64,000 bases of DNA. It comes from an uncultured Paracoccaceae bacterium. GTDB lineage: Bacteria > Pseudomonadota > Alphaproteobacteria > Rhodobacterales > Rhodobacteraceae. The stretch is from assembly GCA_937924905.1 (NCBI GenBank), contig CALDUK010000001.1, positions 1 to 64,000 on the forward strand, in the 5' to 3' direction. Under the pieces are notes generated by a model. That model searched no databases. It was given only the letters and a program-made list of their open reading frames with translations, and had not been told where the DNA came from. The position numbers and the translations under genes are program-made. This document shows, piece after piece, positions 49,630 through 58,038 of this stretch. Each line of letters begins with the position of its first letter. Within the stretch, counting starts at the first letter, position 1.

Positions 49630-50595
49630 ATGACAAAACGTCTTTTAAGGGCGCTGGCGACCAGTGCCGTATTGGGTCTGGGCGCCACGGCAACCTACGC
49701 CGCTGAATGTATCGCTCCGGCGAATCCGGGCGGCGGCTGGGACTTTACCTGCCGTCAGATCGGTAAAATTCTGTTTGATATTGGACAGGTCGACAAACCT
49801 GTACAGGTGTCGAATATGGCGGGCGGCGGGGGCGGTCTGGCGTTCAGCCACGTTGTCAACGAACGCGCTGATGACAATGAACTGATCGTGGCGGCCTCAC
49901 AGGCCACGGCGACACGTTTGGCGCAGAACGCTTACGCTGGCATGACGGCCGATCAAGTGCGCTTTGTTGGCGCCATCGGCGCAGACCCCGGTGTGATCGT
50001 GGTGGCCGCCGACAGCCCTTACCAATCGCTGGGTGATATGGTTGACGCAATCAAGGCCGACCCTGGTTCGGTTGCGTTTGCAGGCGGTTCAGCTGCGGGT
50101 GGATTTGACCATCTGAAGGTGCTTATGGTTCTGAAAGATGCCGATTTCACCGACATCACATCGGTCAAATATATCGGTGTGGACGGCGGCGCTGACGCGA
50201 TCACCCAGACCATCGGCGGCTTTACCCAAGGCATGACCGGCGACATGTCGGAAGTCGTGGGCTTTCTGCAATCGGGCGAAGTGCGCGCATTGGCGGTTCT
50301 GACCGAAGAACGCGTGCCGGGCTTTGAAGATGTGCCAACCGCGAAAGAGCAAGGCTTTGACGTCGTGGCCGTGAACTGGCGTGGGCTATACGTGCCAAAA
50401 GACATCAGCGACGCGGACTTCGAAGCTTGGGGCGCAAAACTGCAAGCTGTTGCCGATAGCGACGAATGGAAAGAAGCGATGGCTGCAAACGGCCTGGCGC
50501 CATTCACCAAAGTCGGTGGCGATTTCCAAAGCTGGGTTGATGGCGTGATTGCCGATACCGTCGATCTTTCGAAAGAAATCGGCGTGATCCAGTGA
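49630..50595 (+). CDS. tctC: Tripartite tricarboxylate transporter substrate-binding protein (TctC/Bug family)
   Basis: 321 aa secreted, CIAPANPGGGWDFTCRQIGKILFDIGQVDKPVQVSNMAGGGGGLAFSHVV. Confidence 0.9.
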   Translation: MTKRLLRALATSAVLGLGATATYAAECIAPANPGGGWDFTCRQIGKILFDIGQVDKPVQVSNMAGGGGGLAFSHVVNERADDNELIVAASQATATRLAQNAYAGMTADQVRFVGAIGADPGVIVVAADSPYQSLGDMVDAIKADPGSVAFAGGSAAGGFDHLKVLMVLKDADFTDITSVKYIGVDGGADAITQTIGGFTQGMTGDMSEVVGFLQSGEVRALAVLTEERVPGFEDVPTAKEQGFDVVAVNWRGLYVPKDISDADFEAWGAKLQAVADSDEWKEAMAANGLAPFTKVGGDFQSWVDGVIADTVDLSKEIGVIQ

Positions 50596-51032
50596 TGAAC
50601 AGCGACCGTCTCTTCGGAGTGGTCGTCATTCTCGGAGCGCTCGCCTATGCGGCGGGCGCTCTACAGATACAGACCAGTTTCATGTCTGATCCCGTTGGAT
50701 CCAAGACCTTTCCCCTGGTGCTGGCCGGTGTGGCTGTGATTTGCGGGCTGATTATGATTTTCCGCCCCGAAGCCGACCCGGATTGGCCGGGGCTGGCCAC
50801 TTTGGGTAGTCTCGCCATCTCAGTGATTGTCATGGTTGGTTATGCTTATGCGATCAAGCCGTTGGGCTTTATGCTACCAACAGCCCTCTGCGCCGCGATT
50901 TTGAGTTTCCAAATTTCACCGCGCGCTGTCCCTTCGGCCCTGACCGGTGTCGGCCTATCGGTTGGCCTGTTCATTGTCTTCAAATTTGCATTGGGGCTTG
51001 GACTGCAGCCTTTTCCGAAAGGATGGTTCTGA
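50592..51032 (+). CDS. tctB: Tripartite tricarboxylate transporter TctB family protein
   Basis: 146 aa, four predicted TMs, between tctC and tctA. Confidence 0.85.
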   Translation: MMNSDRLFGVVVILGALAYAAGALQIQTSFMSDPVGSKTFPLVLAGVAVICGLIMIFRPEADPDWPGLATLGSLAISVIVMVGYAYAIKPLGFMLPTALCAAILSFQISPRAVPSALTGVGLSVGLFIVFKFALGLGLQPFPKGWF

Positions 51033-52541
51033 ATGGATCTTTTGGCCAACCTCGCGCTGGGCTTTAGCGTTGCTTTGTCACCTTTCACGCTTTTCCTGGC
51101 GGTGGTCGGCTGCTTTCTGGGCACGATTATCGGGGCATTGCCAGGTCTTGGGCCGTCGAACGGTGTCGCAATCCTTATCCCACTGGCCTTTTCGCTGGGG
51201 TTGGATGCCACATCGTCTCTGGTCCTGATGACGTCTGTTTACTACGGCGCAATGTATGGCGGGCGTATCTCGTCCATCCTGCTGAACATTCCGGGCGACG
51301 AGCCAGCCTTGATGACCACGCTTGACGGGTACCCAATGGCCAAAGCCGGACGCGCTGGCGACGCGCTGGTGCTTTCTGGTTTTGCCAGTTTTTTCGGCGC
51401 GCTTTTCGCCACGATTGGTTTGATGCTTTTGGCCCCGATCCTTTCGCGTATCGCCTATCAATTTGGCCCTGCCGAATATTTCGCACTTTACCTGCTGGCG
51501 TTTTCGACCTTGGGTGGCATTGCATCCAGCAATCAAGCGAAGGCGGCTCTGGCGTCCTGCATCGGGCTGGGGATCGCAATGATCGGACTGGACAATCAGA
51601 CCGGCATGCCGCGCCTGACAGGCGGCAACCTGCATTTGTTGGATGGCATTGATTTTCTGGTGGCGATCGTCGGACTTTTTGCTGTGGCCGAGGTCTTTAT
51701 TTTCATTGAAAGTCACGGGCGCGGGTCATCAATTGGTGTAAAACTGGACAAGGTGACTTTGCCTGTGCGCGAACTGGTGCGTGGCATTGGTACGATGATT
51801 CGGTGCAGCGTCATCGGTTTCATTGCCGGCGTGTTGCCGGGGGCCGGCGCTTCGCTTGGGTCTTTTTTGGCTTATGTCGCAGAAAAGAAATGGCGCGGCG
51901 GCGAAAGCAGCGGGTTCGGCAAAGGCAATCCGCAAGGTGTCATCGCACCTGAGGCGGGCAATAATTCGGCCGCCGGTGGCGCGCTGGTCCCCATGCTGAC
52001 GCTTGGCGTGCCGGGATCAGGCACAACCGCTGTTCTGTTGGCGTTGCTGATGACACTGAACATCACACCGGGGCCAACATTGTTCACCGACCGACCAGAG
52101 GTGGTTTGGGGACTGATCGCGTCACTGCTGATTGCAAACTTCGTTTTGTTGGCAATGAACGTGCCATTGGTGAAGATATTCGTCAAAATCCTGACCGTGC
52201 CCGCATGGGTTCTGTTGCCGGGCGTCATGATGATTTCCTTCGTCGGTATATTCTCTTTGACGGGCAGCTATTTTGATCTGCTTTTGATGATTGTCTTCGG
52301 CATCATCGGCTGGCTTTTTCGCAAACTGAACATCCCGACAGTTCCCATCATACTTGGCATCCTTCTTGGCAAGCATATGGAAGATGCTTTGCGCCGCGCG
52401 ATGATCCTATCGGATGGGGACTGGACCTATCTCTTTTCATCGGGCATCGCGATTGGGCTTTGGGCCTTTGCTGTACTGGGGTTCGTCGCGCCGTTATTCC
52501 TGCGGCACCTAATCAAGAAACCACAAGCGGTCAGCGACTGA
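51033..52541 (+). CDS. tctA: Tripartite tricarboxylate transporter permease
   Basis: 502 aa, GTIIGALPGLGPSNGVAILIPLAFSLGLDATSSLVLMTSVYYGAMYGGRISSILLNIPGDEPALMTTLDGYPMAK. Confidence 0.93.
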   Translation: MDLLANLALGFSVALSPFTLFLAVVGCFLGTIIGALPGLGPSNGVAILIPLAFSLGLDATSSLVLMTSVYYGAMYGGRISSILLNIPGDEPALMTTLDGYPMAKAGRAGDALVLSGFASFFGALFATIGLMLLAPILSRIAYQFGPAEYFALYLLAFSTLGGIASSNQAKAALASCIGLGIAMIGLDNQTGMPRLTGGNLHLLDGIDFLVAIVGLFAVAEVFIFIESHGRGSSIGVKLDKVTLPVRELVRGIGTMIRCSVIGFIAGVLPGAGASLGSFLAYVAEKKWRGGESSGFGKGNPQGVIAPEAGNNSAAGGALVPMLTLGVPGSGTTAVLLALLMTLNITPGPTLFTDRPEVVWGLIASLLIANFVLLAMNVPLVKIFVKILTVPAWVLLPGVMMISFVGIFSLTGSYFDLLLMIVFGIIGWLFRKLNIPTVPIILGILLGKHMEDALRRAMILSDGDWTYLFSSGIAIGLWAFAVLGFVAPLFLRHLIKKPQAVSD

Positions 52542-53893
52542 TGACCCGCGTTCTTATCCCATCCGGCGCGTTGGGTCTCGACTACGACAAGGCTGCCCTT
52601 GCGCGGGGCGTCGCGATGAAGCCAGATTTGATTGCAATTGACGGCGGGTCCACAGATAGCGGCCCGTCTTATCTGGGTCGTGGCGTATCAAAATACGCGC
52701 GGACGTCGACCAAAATTGAATGGAAAGGTCTGATCGAAGCGGCGCGGGACGCAGGGTGCCCTTTGGTGATCGGGACTGCGGGCACATGTGGGACCGATGA
52801 TACAGTCGATTGGCTGGTTGAGATCACCAAAGAATGTCTGGCGGAGTTGGACATGAACGCCAAGATCACCACGTTGAAGTCCAGTCAGGATCCGGACGCG
52901 ATTGCCAATGCCTTCGAAAACGGCAAGGTTTCCGCGCTTCCCGCCGCCCCAGAAATTGGCCGCGCCACAATTGAAAATTGCGCAAACATTGTCGCCCTTG
53001 CAGGAGCCGAACAGATTGCAGCCGCGCTGAACACAGGCGCGGACATTGTTATCGCCGGACGCACAACCGACACCGCAACAATTGCTGCGTTGCCCTTGCT
53101 GCGCGGCGACCATGCAGGCGCGGCGTGGCATGGGGCAAAAATCGGTGAGTGTGGCGCACTTTGCGCAACAAATCCGCAGTCAGGCGTCTTGATGGTCGAC
53201 TTTGACCAAACGGGGTTTCTCGTCACGCCCTTGGCAGACGGCGCGCGTTCGACACCGCAAACCGTTTTCGCACATATGCTGTATGAGAATTCAGACCCGT
53301 TCATATTGCACGAACCTGGCGGGCATCTTGACGTCACTTCGGCGACATATGTGGCCCTGGACGAGACAAGCGTGCGTGTCGAAGGCTCAACCTGGAACGA
53401 AAGCACGCAATACACCGTAAAGCTGGAAGGCGCGCGGGTCGCAGGGTATCAGACCCTGTTGATGGCAACATTGCGGGATCGACGCTATGTCGAGAATGCA
53501 AAAACATGGATTGCCGATATTTCGGAAAAGCATGCTGCCAAAGTCGCCGACCGGATGGGTCTTTCCACAGGCGACTATGTCTGCGATCTGCGGCTTGTCG
53601 GCATCGACAGTACGCTTGGGGACATCGAACGTGGCAATAGCGTCCCGAACGAAATCGGTGTGGTCTGCGTCATCACAAGTGACACGCAAGAACGCGCGAA
53701 CGAAATCGGCAAGTTGATGAACCCGTATCTGTTGCACCATCCGTTGACGAAACAGGAAGAACAGCCGACTTTTTCATTTCCCTTTTCGCCGGCCGAAATT
53801 GATCGTGGCCCGTGTTTTGAATTTTGCCTGCACCACGTACTTGTACTGGACGATCCGATGGACGCTTTTCGCTTAGAGGTCATGGATGCCTGA
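52541..53893 (+). CDS. AtuA-family (DUF1446) protein
   Basis: MTRVLIPSGALGLDYDKAALARGVAMKPDLIAIDGGSTDSGPSYLGRGVSKY..PLVIGTAGTCGTDDTVDW; acyclic-terpene-utilisation AtuA-like. Confidence 0.82.
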   Translation: MTRVLIPSGALGLDYDKAALARGVAMKPDLIAIDGGSTDSGPSYLGRGVSKYARTSTKIEWKGLIEAARDAGCPLVIGTAGTCGTDDTVDWLVEITKECLAELDMNAKITTLKSSQDPDAIANAFENGKVSALPAAPEIGRATIENCANIVALAGAEQIAAALNTGADIVIAGRTTDTATIAALPLLRGDHAGAAWHGAKIGECGALCATNPQSGVLMVDFDQTGFLVTPLADGARSTPQTVFAHMLYENSDPFILHEPGGHLDVTSATYVALDETSVRVEGSTWNESTQYTVKLEGARVAGYQTLLMATLRDRRYVENAKTWIADISEKHAAKVADRMGLSTGDYVCDLRLVGIDSTLGDIERGNSVPNEIGVVCVITSDTQERANEIGKLMNPYLLHHPLTKQEEQPTFSFPFSPAEIDRGPCFEFCLHHVLVLDDPMDAFRLEVMDA

Positions 53894-54188
53894 TGTCGGA
53901 CAGCTCGCGTCCAAGGTAAGGTCAAAGAATGCCGGACCATTCTGGCTGACGATTGATATCTTTTGCTGCACTGCATCCTCCTACCGGCAAATCACCACCG
54001 GACTTTCTACCGCCCGTGTTGCCGATGCTCTTGGGGTGCTGGAAACTGAGATTAAGCGTTTTGATATCGACGCTTTGCATGTCATCAAGATCAGCCTGCC
54101 CAGACCCGTTATTCAAGGAAGCCTGGACGATCGCGACATGCATGGCGCCGCATGGGCCAGCGTTATTGCCGAGTTGGACATCAACTGA
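53886..54188 (+). CDS. DUF4387-type small protein
   Basis: 100 aa MPDVGQLASKVRSKNAGPFWLTIDIFCCTASSYRQI..IKISLPRPVIQGSLDDRDMHGAAWASVIAELDIN; 8-nt overlap with AtuA-family gene. Confidence 0.78.
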   Translation: MPDVGQLASKVRSKNAGPFWLTIDIFCCTASSYRQITTGLSTARVADALGVLETEIKRFDIDALHVIKISLPRPVIQGSLDDRDMHGAAWASVIAELDIN

Positions 54189-54290
54189 CGGTCCCCGTGA
54201 CCCATCACAATGCCAGTTTCAGACAGAAAAGGCATTTTCAAGCAGACACAAGAACTGCATGATGTTGTTTGAAAATAAGGGAGGAAGACC

Positions 54291-55301
54291 ATGAATAAGT
54301 ATATCAGCCGCTCGGCCATAGCTGCCGTCATTTTCGCCTTTGGTGGCGAAGCCATGGCAACCGAATGGAATGTCTCGCTTTGGGGAAAACGCCGCGCGTT
54401 TACCGAGCATGTTGAAAAACTTGCCGAGCTTGTATCCGAAAAAACTGATGGCGAGTTCACTTTGAACATCAGCTATGGTGGCCTGTCGAAGAACCGCGAG
54501 AACCTGGATGGCATCTCAATCGGAGCATTCGAAATGGCTCAGTTCTGCGCTGGCTATCACCGCGACAAGAACCCTTCGATCACCGTGCTGGAATTGCCGT
54601 TTCTGGGTGTGACGTCACTGGAACAGGAAATCGACCTGTCGATGGCGGTCTACAAACACCCTGCCACCATAGCTGATCTAGGACGCTGGAACGCAACACT
54701 GCTGATGCCGTCACCTTTGCCACAGTATAATATCGCAGGCGTTGGCGAAGCGCCTTCCAGCTTGGCCGATTTCGAAGGCCTTAGCGTTCGTGCCACGGGT
54801 GGAATTGGTCAGGCCATGGAAGCCGTTGGTGCAGTGCCAACATCAATGTCGGCCACAGAAGTGCGTCAGGCAATGGACAGCGGTGTCGTCAAAGCGGTCA
54901 GCTTTGCGCCGCACGCGCATATGTCCTTTGGCACCATCGAAAATGCAACCTGGTGGACAACCAACCTTAACCCCGGAACGGTCAATTGCCCGGTGGTCGC
55001 AAACTCGGACGCGCTGAACAGCCTGTCGGACGCACATCGCGAGGCACTTTTGGGATCGATCGACGAAGCGCTTGATCACTATGTCGCCAACTACAACGGT
55101 GCGACCATGGACGCTTGGGGACCCGCCCTGGAAGAACGCGGCATCCAAAAAGTGACCTTCGCAGACAGTGAAATCGCAGCCTTCAAAGAAGCCGCCGCCA
55201 CGCCAGCAGCCGCCAGTTGGATTGAAGCCAACACAGCAGCCGGTCTGCCCGCGCAGGAGTTGTATGACATGGTCATAGGCATGATCGCCGACGGCAGCTG
55301 A
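54291..55301 (+). CDS. TRAP transporter substrate-binding protein (DctP family)
   Basis: 336 aa with signal peptide, EWNVSLWGKRRAFTEHVEKLAELVSEKTDGEFTLNISYGGLSKNRENLDGISIGAFEMAQFC. Confidence 0.88.
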   Translation: MNKYISRSAIAAVIFAFGGEAMATEWNVSLWGKRRAFTEHVEKLAELVSEKTDGEFTLNISYGGLSKNRENLDGISIGAFEMAQFCAGYHRDKNPSITVLELPFLGVTSLEQEIDLSMAVYKHPATIADLGRWNATLLMPSPLPQYNIAGVGEAPSSLADFEGLSVRATGGIGQAMEAVGAVPTSMSATEVRQAMDSGVVKAVSFAPHAHMSFGTIENATWWTTNLNPGTVNCPVVANSDALNSLSDAHREALLGSIDEALDHYVANYNGATMDAWGPALEERGIQKVTFADSEIAAFKEAAATPAAASWIEANTAAGLPAQELYDMVIGMIADGS

Positions 55302-55362
55302 CGCAAAACCGTTGCCCCGCTGTTTCGGCGCGGGGCAACATCCTTCCGATTGGGGTGGTCAC

Positions 55363-55986
55363 ATGGCAACCGGTTCTCTGGTGTTAAGCGACGACAGTAC
55401 GCTTAGCAGGATCGACCGATCCTTCCTGAAGCTGGAGAAGATTTTTGCGCTTATCAGCGGCATTGCTGTGTTTTCACTGATGGTTCTGGCCGTTGTTTCG
55501 GTTACTGGCCGGAACGGTTTCAACCGACCCCTGCCCGGCTATGTTGATTATATTGAACAGGTCATGCCGTTGATTGCGTTTATGGGCGCGTCTTATGTGA
55601 TGCGCGAAGGCGCGCATATCCGCATGGATATTGTCGTCGGACAGTTGCGCGGACGTTTGCTTTACTCGGTCGAACTGATAACCACCCTGGCTGTGCTGGC
55701 CTTAATGATCCTGTTGGTTTGGGGCACGTGGTCGCATTTCCAGCGCAGCTTTGATTTTGCTGCCCCGTTGTGGAGCAGAGACAGCTCGATGGATATCGCA
55801 TTGCCAATCTGGCCGGCGAAGCTTTTGGTCCCCGTTGCGTTTTCGGTGCTTTGCGTGAGGCTTTGTCTGCAAGCCTTGGCCTTTGGGCGCGCCATATTTA
55901 CGGGCAAAGCGGTTGCCGTGCCGACAGTGATTGATGCGGCAAAACAGGCCAGCCTGGAAGCCGAGCAATTGCAGGGCGAAACCTGA
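55363..55986 (+). CDS. TRAP transporter small permease (DctQ family)
   Basis: four-TM protein, VSVTGRNGFNRPLPGYVDYIEQVMPLIAFMGASYVMREGAHIRMDIV. Confidence 0.87.
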   Translation: MATGSLVLSDDSTLSRIDRSFLKLEKIFALISGIAVFSLMVLAVVSVTGRNGFNRPLPGYVDYIEQVMPLIAFMGASYVMREGAHIRMDIVVGQLRGRLLYSVELITTLAVLALMILLVWGTWSHFQRSFDFAAPLWSRDSSMDIALPIWPAKLLVPVAFSVLCVRLCLQALAFGRAIFTGKAVAVPTVIDAAKQASLEAEQLQGET

Positions 55987-57386
55987 TGGAGCCAATCGAC
56001 ATCGGCTTGTGGGTCACCGGCGGGCTTTTGGTTCTGGTCGTTCTGGGAATGCGCGTGGCGTTCGCGGCTGCCTTGGCGGGGCTGATCGGGCTGATCTGGA
56101 TATTCTGGGCCAAGAAAGGCTATGACCCGTCCGAATTTGGCTGGGCGCTGGGCGTCGCCGTCAAAACTGCCGGCCAAGTGCCGCATTCAAAAGTGACAAG
56201 TCAGGCTTTGAGCCTGATACCGACCTTCATCCTCATCGGCTATCTGGCGTATTACGCAGGTCTGACGCGCGCACTTTTCGAAGCTGCGAAACGTTGGATC
56301 GCATGGGTTCCGGGGGGGCTTGCGGTCTCAACCATTTTTGCGACCGCCGGGTTCGCCGCCGTTTCGGGCGCCTCTGTCGCGACCTCGGCCGTCTTTGCCA
56401 GAATAGCCATCCCCGAGATGTTGAAAATTGGATATGACAAACGCTTTGCCGCCGGGGTTGTTGCAGCGGGCGGCACTTTGGCCAGCTTGATCCCGCCTTC
56501 GGCCATTCTTGTGATCTATGCCATCATCGTCGAGCAAGATGTCGGAAAATTGCTGCTTGCCGGGTTCATACCCGGTGCGTTTTCAGCCCTGATCTATGGC
56601 ATTCTGATTGTCGGGATGGCGCTGACGATAAAGAACTTTGGCCCCCCGGTCGGCGGCTTTACCTGGCGCGAACGATTTGTATCCTTGCCTCCTGCGCTGC
56701 CAATCATCTTTGTCGTGCTGACGATTATCTGTTTTGTCTACAATCCGTTTGGCGGTGATGCCTGGGGAACGCCAACGGAAGGCGGCGCCATAGGTGCTTT
56801 CGTTGTTTTCCTGATGGCGGTTTACCGCGGCATGCGATGGCCGCAGTTGAAAGATGCCCTTTTGGAAACCGCCAAGCTGAGCGTCATGATCTTTACGATC
56901 ATCTGGGGCGTTCTGATCTATGTCCGCTTCCTTGGGTTCGCGGATTTGCCCGGTGCGTTTTCAGATTGGATTACGTCACTGACGATGTCGCCTATGCTGA
57001 TCCTTGTGTGCATCCTGCTGGCTTACGCGGTACTTGGCATGTTCATGGACGCAATTGGCATGCTGCTGCTTACACTGCCGGTCGTTTACCCTGCTGTCAT
57101 GGCCCTGAACGGGGGCGAGCTTGTCAGCGCGGCCGACAGCACCTTTGGCATGTCAGGCCCGATGTGCGCCATCTGGTTCGGTATTCTCGTCGTGAAAATG
57201 GCCGAGTTCTGTTTGATCACACCGCCTATCGGTTTGAACTGTTTCGTCGTGGCAGGGGTGCGCGACGACCTGACGGTGCAGGATGTATTTAAAGGCGTCA
57301 CACCGTTTTTCATTGCAGATGCTATCACCATTGCCCTTTTGGTTGCCTTTCCTGCAATTGTACTTTGGTTGCCCAGCCTGGCCTAA
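55986..57386 (+). CDS. TRAP transporter large permease (DctM family)
   Basis: 466 aa multi-TM, GGTLASLIPPSAILVIYAIIVEQDVGKLLLAGFIPG. Confidence 0.92.
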   Translation: MEPIDIGLWVTGGLLVLVVLGMRVAFAAALAGLIGLIWIFWAKKGYDPSEFGWALGVAVKTAGQVPHSKVTSQALSLIPTFILIGYLAYYAGLTRALFEAAKRWIAWVPGGLAVSTIFATAGFAAVSGASVATSAVFARIAIPEMLKIGYDKRFAAGVVAAGGTLASLIPPSAILVIYAIIVEQDVGKLLLAGFIPGAFSALIYGILIVGMALTIKNFGPPVGGFTWRERFVSLPPALPIIFVVLTIICFVYNPFGGDAWGTPTEGGAIGAFVVFLMAVYRGMRWPQLKDALLETAKLSVMIFTIIWGVLIYVRFLGFADLPGAFSDWITSLTMSPMLILVCILLAYAVLGMFMDAIGMLLLTLPVVYPAVMALNGGELVSAADSTFGMSGPMCAIWFGILVVKMAEFCLITPPIGLNCFVVAGVRDDLTVQDVFKGVTPFFIADAITIALLVAFPAIVLWLPSLA

Positions 57387-57426: not shown

Positions 57427-58038
57427 ATGGTCAATCACCTGTATCAAAACGACCTGCCAGACGGGTTGGATTTCGGAACCTCTGTCGCAATTGATTGCGA
57501 AACAATGGGGCTTGTCCCCGGACGCGACAGGCTTTGTCTTGTGCAACTTTCCGCAGGCGATGGCGACGCGCATCTGGTTCAAATCGCGAAAGGCCAAACC
57601 TCGGCGCCAAATTTGGAACGGTTGGTGTCTGACCCGAATGTGTTGAAGCTTTTCCATTTTGGAAGATTTGACATCGCCGCTTTGTTGAATGCCTTCGGCG
57701 CACTTGCCACCCCGGTCTATTGCACCAAGATAGCGTCAAAACTGACGCGTACCTATACGGACCGGCACGGCCTTAAGAATCTGCTGGATGAGCTGCTTGG
57801 CGTTGATATTTCCAAGTTGCAACAGATGAGCGATTGGGGTGCGGCTGAACTGACCGAAGCGCAATTGGCTTATGCGGCAAGCGATGTTCTGTACCTGCAT
57901 CAGATGAAAGAACAGCTGGACGAACGCTTGGCGCGTGAAGGCCGGGCAGACCTTGCCAAAGCGGCGTTTGACTTTCTGCCCACCCGTGCTCGGCTGGATC
58001 TTGCCGGTTGGCCCGATGTGGACATCTTCGCGCATTAG
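57427..58038 (+). CDS. Ribonuclease D-like 3'-5' exonuclease
   Basis: 203 aa, AIDCETMGLVPGRDRLCLVQLSAGDGDAHLVQI; DEDD-type; KNLLDELLGVDISKLQQMSDW. Confidence 0.9.
   Translation: MVNHLYQNDLPDGLDFGTSVAIDCETMGLVPGRDRLCLVQLSAGDGDAHLVQIAKGQTSAPNLERLVSDPNVLKLFHFGRFDIAALLNAFGALATPVYCTKIASKLTRTYTDRHGLKNLLDELLGVDISKLQQMSDWGAAELTEAQLAYAASDVLYLHQMKEQLDERLAREGRADLAKAAFDFLPTRARLDLAGWPDVDIFAH

Follow-up and report, generated by a model that had tools for sequence, protein, structure and literature searches.

The question at this locus

When a gene pair of the AtuA and DUF4387 (domain of unknown function) families lies between the genes of two unrelated importers, which of its neighbours does it work with, and on what? 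The pair in question is in a window of 64,000 nt, contig CALDUK010000001.1 from an uncultured Paracoccaceae bacterium, and all coordinates below are positions in that window. It is preceded by tctCBA, which encodes a tripartite tricarboxylate transporter (TTT), and followed by dctP, dctQ and dctM of a tripartite ATP-independent periplasmic (TRAP) transporter. Gene content, homology, a fold match and co-inheritance carry the explanation that we favour, with a probability of about 0.6: tctCBA and the pair would form a self-sufficient cassette that imports an acid and cleaves it, releasing acetate and a 2-oxo acid, with the TRAP genes as a separate module. Current annotation gives the pair either a terpene label, which misleads, or no known function, and recasting it as a lyase of the citramalate lyase (CmlAB) type with its own importer gives a concrete, easily tested prediction on organic-acid use in marine bacteria.

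Co-inheritance of tctCBA with the pair

TctC alone was used as the query in a search of 199 genomes of the family, and the counts ignore ancestry. Its matches split into two groups, 50 genomes at 66-100% identity, taken as orthologues, and 23 at 52-57%. The orthologue and window-type DUF4387, the latter present in 56 of the 199 genomes, were found together in 48, with DUF4387 only in 8, TctC only in 2 and neither in 141 (odds ratio 423). TctC is adjacent to and upstream of DUF4387 in 43 of the 50 orthologue genomes, the order being fixed and the spacing 3.3-3.4 kb in 42 of these and 5.8 kb in the other. One genome (G189) retains both genes though they are ~170 kb apart, and in one of the two with TctC only (G143) the locus ends at a contig edge, with AtuA present. 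An orthologous tctA lies within 1 kb in 39 of the 57 clade loci that have enough flank; the others, SAR116 notably among them, have a different TTT or none. The original prediction, which proposed a neighbourhood survey of AtuA plus DUF4387 and paired them with carboxylate uptake by TctCBA, is well supported in that respect, and we regard tctCBA, AtuA and DUF4387 as one co-inherited five-gene cassette, carried by about a quarter of the sampled family.

A contig labelled as a gammaproteobacterium, Thioalkalivibrio sp. HK1 (L171:5988-6995), has a cassette whose TctC is 82% identical to that of the window and whose AtuA is only 58% identical. Either transfer or a mislabelled contig would account for it.

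Homology of the pair to citramalate lyase

Both proteins of the pair have full-length homologues of solved structure, AtuA in chain A of PDB 9erq/9evf (E=3.2e-72, 34% identity) and DUF4387 in chain B of 9erq (E=8e-10); in the deposits these chains are CmlA and CmlB, the two subunits of citramalate lyase. AtuA was also modelled with AlphaFold, at a pLDDT (predicted local distance difference test) of 83, and this model has 9evf_A as its sole significant PDB match (template-modelling score, TM, 0.87; E=2.4e-45). At all 34 family-invariant positions, defined as those conserved in at least 95% of 107 proteins, the window AtuA keeps the conserved letter. Judged by the alignments of both chains and the modelled fold of AtuA, the two proteins probably make up a two-subunit lyase homologous to CmlAB, and to call the activity poorly characterised or unknown, as had been done before, was too pessimistic, both subunits having a solved homologue with a named reaction.

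The solved CmlA is ~94% identical to the AtuA of an enterobacterial glutamate-to-mesaconate cluster with the order glmS-glmL-glmE-mal-AtuA-DUF4387-symporter-glsA-class I fumarase (L139); a DUF1446 gene downstream of mal has already been remarked on, without explanation (PMC4682846). The cluster would lead from glutamate to methylaspartate, mesaconate and citramalate, and therefore citramalate cleavage is the step left to fill. It resembles the window in having an adjoining AtuA-DUF4387 pair, there at a presumed acetate-releasing step, but CmlAB stands with glutamate mutase and methylaspartase genes that make the substrate within the cell, whereas the window pair stands with a TTT importer and its substrate would be imported. 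Two further loci also count for a lyase: at L130 a related pair accompanies a CitMHS transporter, aconitase and PrpD, and at L129 a fused AtuA-DUF4387 accompanies a transporter of the 2HCT type.

Several points weigh on the other side. The window AtuA shares only about a third of its residues with CmlA, falls in the tree in a clade of mostly TTT-linked proteins apart from the characterised CmlA, and shows 27 cladewise position differences from the CmlA group, those near invariant motifs including T176/Y179, T178/P181 and E258/G262 and others of the 27 being at K51, T82 and W196; for these reasons it is unsafe to carry the exact substrate of CmlA over to the window pair. At several of the 27 positions other clades, too, have the window residue most often, so that CmlA may be the specialised member. 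A literature search for a primary paper on 9erq/9evf found none, and the CmlAB reaction hence rests on deposit titles, that of 9evf being 'Citramalate lyase - ADP - pyruvate complex', and on gene context. The AtuA family is also functionally mixed, since related clades adjoin genes as unlike as those for hydantoinases and acyltransferases, and the SAR116 members of the window clade have no TTT next to the pair.

Proposed pathway and its substrate

In the proposed pathway TctCBA would import a hydroxy acid with two or three carboxyl groups, of the class to which citramalate and citrate belong, and AtuA-DUF4387, by analogy with its solved homologue, would split a C-C bond of this acid to give acetate and a 2-oxo acid. 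That the lyase may use a nucleotide or ATP is suggested solely by the mention of ADP in the name given to 9evf. The products would go straight into central metabolism, and the acetate could be activated by an AcsA-type acetyl-coenzyme A (CoA) synthetase, whose gene is present in the genome. A lyase yielding acetate and a 2-oxo acid needs no CoA ligase, so the lack of an adjacent one, correctly noted before, is what would be expected.

The AtuA of acyclic terpene utilisation is of the same Pfam family, and one paper credits it with a cleavage that releases acetate (PMC4847356), which lends a lyase some wider support, but its substrate is a CoA ester and it has atuCF, atuE and atuH partners, none of which is adjacent in the window. 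That the window pair likewise acts on a CoA ester, rather than as a lyase on free acids, is quite improbable: CoA ligase, carboxylase and hydratase are not adjacent, and the terpene role of AtuA was assigned by homology, the same step being credited elsewhere to LiuE (PMC4097962). No geranyl-CoA carboxylase, hydratase or acyl-CoA synthetase was apparent among the adjacent genes (the rest of the genome was not searched), and the terpene (Atu) pathway was rejected as having no partner genes adjacent.

The simplest form of an import-and-cleave pathway would have TctCBA bring in citramalate and the lyase convert it to acetate and pyruvate, the reaction named for CmlAB. It would require no further enzymes, CmlAB is the only characterised relative, with homology over the full length and a similar fold, and the literature on purple bacteria related to this one includes a discussion of citramalate chemistry (PMC8307300). 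The separate clade, the low identity and the cladewise differences, several of them beside invariant motifs, nevertheless make this narrower form rather doubtful.

Citrate is the other named candidate, cleaved to oxaloacetate and acetate by a two-subunit citrate lyase that would do without an acyl-carrier protein and be supplied by a TTT of the citrate type. Citrate is what most of the characterised complete TctCBA systems import, and a two-component regulator often lies beside them (PMC5812351). The window has a complete TTT, with TctC, TctB and TctA together and all matching Pfam above cut-off, and 27 of its 57 relatives have a divergent set of response regulator, kinase and periplasmic-binding protein beside tctC, in which they resemble the citrate systems TctCBA/TctDE and BctCBA/BctDE. 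The window differs from these systems in its added lyase pair and in having no regulator near the cassette, as the original prediction had said, a statement that is true of the window and does not extend to those 27 relatives. Elsewhere in the genome the best match to their response regulator (112 bits, 35% identity) is no clear orthologue. Also in favour of citrate, the sister TTT cassette without AtuA, the lower-identity group above, never co-occurs with window-type DUF4387 (0 of 23 genomes, p=0.0003, ancestry ignored), as though one could stand in for the other. This exclusivity could instead reflect lineage history, however, and a cell with a tricarboxylic acid cycle needs no special citrate lyase, so that we think citrate cleavage unlikely. 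The 13 sister cassettes whose neighbourhoods were examined (one unreadable) mostly have the same regulator layout and lack AtuA, and no enzyme was found to adjoin them consistently.

Tentatively, the TTT-coupled clade may be a distinct lyase with a substrate of its own, such as a citrate lyase that works without an acyl carrier, or an enzyme that cleaves some other hydroxy-polycarboxylate taken up by the cell. If this is so, marine Alphaproteobacteria would have a complete five-gene import-and-cleave pathway that is at present labelled only as terpene utilisation and DUF4387.

The ligand of TctC was also sought from structure, but AlphaFold gave a model of too low quality to rely on (pLDDT 42). 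The closest solved relative of TctC is 25hk, whose listed name carries no ligand.

The TRAP genes as a neighbouring module

All eight genes had been read as a single pathway in which both importers supply AtuA-DUF4387. They do share a strand, and the nearest metagenome-assembled genome (L158) has the same gene order with TRAP genes at the same site. In a genome of the same genus and in Silicimonas loci, however, DUF4387 is followed by rnd after about 50 nt (47-54 in Silicimonas), at the site where the window has a 3.2-kb TRAP segment, and one TRAP-free locus of this group carries an AtuA identical to that of the window. In a sample of 149 family genomes the window-type pair was found in 39, the TRAP protein in 79 and both in 19, no more often than chance would give (odds ratio 0.79, p=0.58); they were linked in none of the 19. 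TRAP orthologues up to 84% identical lie elsewhere in genomes of other genera. The juxtaposition of TRAP genes and cassette is thus not a general feature, because it is seen in two lineages only, those of the window and of L158, the single exception, and is absent from all 19 other genomes with both.

Two importers for one pathway were rejected on the TRAP-free site, the unlinked orthologues and the chance co-occurrence. Given also the 102-nt gap before the TRAP genes and a DctP in L158 that is less like that of the window than are unlinked orthologues, we consider a single eight-gene pathway very improbable. The TRAP genes are most likely a separate module and a bystander, probably transcribed separately from the cassette, and they seem to have come to lie beside it later, with no relation to it. 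The analysis in this way sets a coincidental neighbour apart from the real functional unit.

The DctP of L158 (L158:4103-5173) is 67% identical to that of the window, and an additional small open reading frame (ORF) precedes DctQ in L158; replacement or a separate arrival of its TRAP genes is possible. A DctP ligand could not be taken from solved relatives, the nearest of which are weak matches (E about 1e-14).

Gene layout

Genes were called from ORFs and Pfam, all eight proteins scoring above the Pfam cut-offs (Table 1). ORFs, Pfam and sequence agree on eight genes on the + strand in the predicted order tctC-tctB-tctA-AtuA-DUF4387-DctP-DctQ-DctM. Two predicted details were likewise seen in the sequence, an 8-nt overlap of AtuA and DUF4387 and a start of AtuA inside the tctA stop, with one base in common (TGATG). 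In addition, tctB has a GTG start and overlaps the tctC stop, and tctA directly abuts tctB. The description of most genes as overlapping is apt from tctC to DUF4387, but it masks a break at the module junction, because a 102-nt gap lies between DUF4387 and the TRAP genes. The gap holds a separate ribosome-binding site, GGGAGGA, 5' of the TRAP genes, and has some fold potential (z=-2.2). A consensus promoter or terminator was looked for in the gap and none was seen, such consensus scans being uninformative.

Table 1. Features of the locus, in window positions
Feature	Position	Strand	Evidence or remark
tctC, periplasmic solute-binding protein of TTT importer	49630..50595	+	PF03401, E=6.8e-23
tctB, small TTT membrane subunit	50592..51032	+	PF07331, E=7.5e-16
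tctA, large TTT permease	51033..52541	+	PF01970, E=2.9e-146
AtuA (CmlA-like), predicted large subunit of citramalate-lyase-type C-C lyase	52541..53893	+	PF07287; PDB 9erq/9evf chain A
DUF4387 (CmlB-like), predicted small lyase subunit	53886..54188	+	PF14330, E=2.4e-21; PDB 9erq chain B
Gap between TTT-lyase and TRAP modules, 102 nt	54189..54290	.	ribosome-binding site for TRAP genes
TRAP DctP solute-binding protein, neighbouring module	54291..55301	+	PF03480, E=2.3e-23
TRAP DctQ small permease, neighbouring module	~55312..55986, start codon uncertain	+	PF04290, E=3.8e-21
TRAP DctM large permease, neighbouring module	55986..57386	+	PF06808, E=1.3e-66
rnd, first gene of rnd-lptCAB flank	57427..58038	+	adjoins DUF4387 directly in Silicimonas, marking the TRAP-free site

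Related pairs elsewhere

Natural AtuA-DUF4387 fusions of about 700 amino acids were found at L128:8119-10266 and L129:8169-10247, the latter adjoining a LysR regulator as well as its 2-hydroxycarboxylate transporter. In Variovorax and Cupriavidus (L133, L136) the pair is accompanied by genes for hydantoinase A/B and for a protein resembling 2-hydroxyacid dehydrogenases. A third AtuA-DUF4387 clade of the same family (L101, L105) is accompanied by penicillin-acyltransferase-like (AAT) proteins and by peptide/solute transport genes, which suggests a quite different role.
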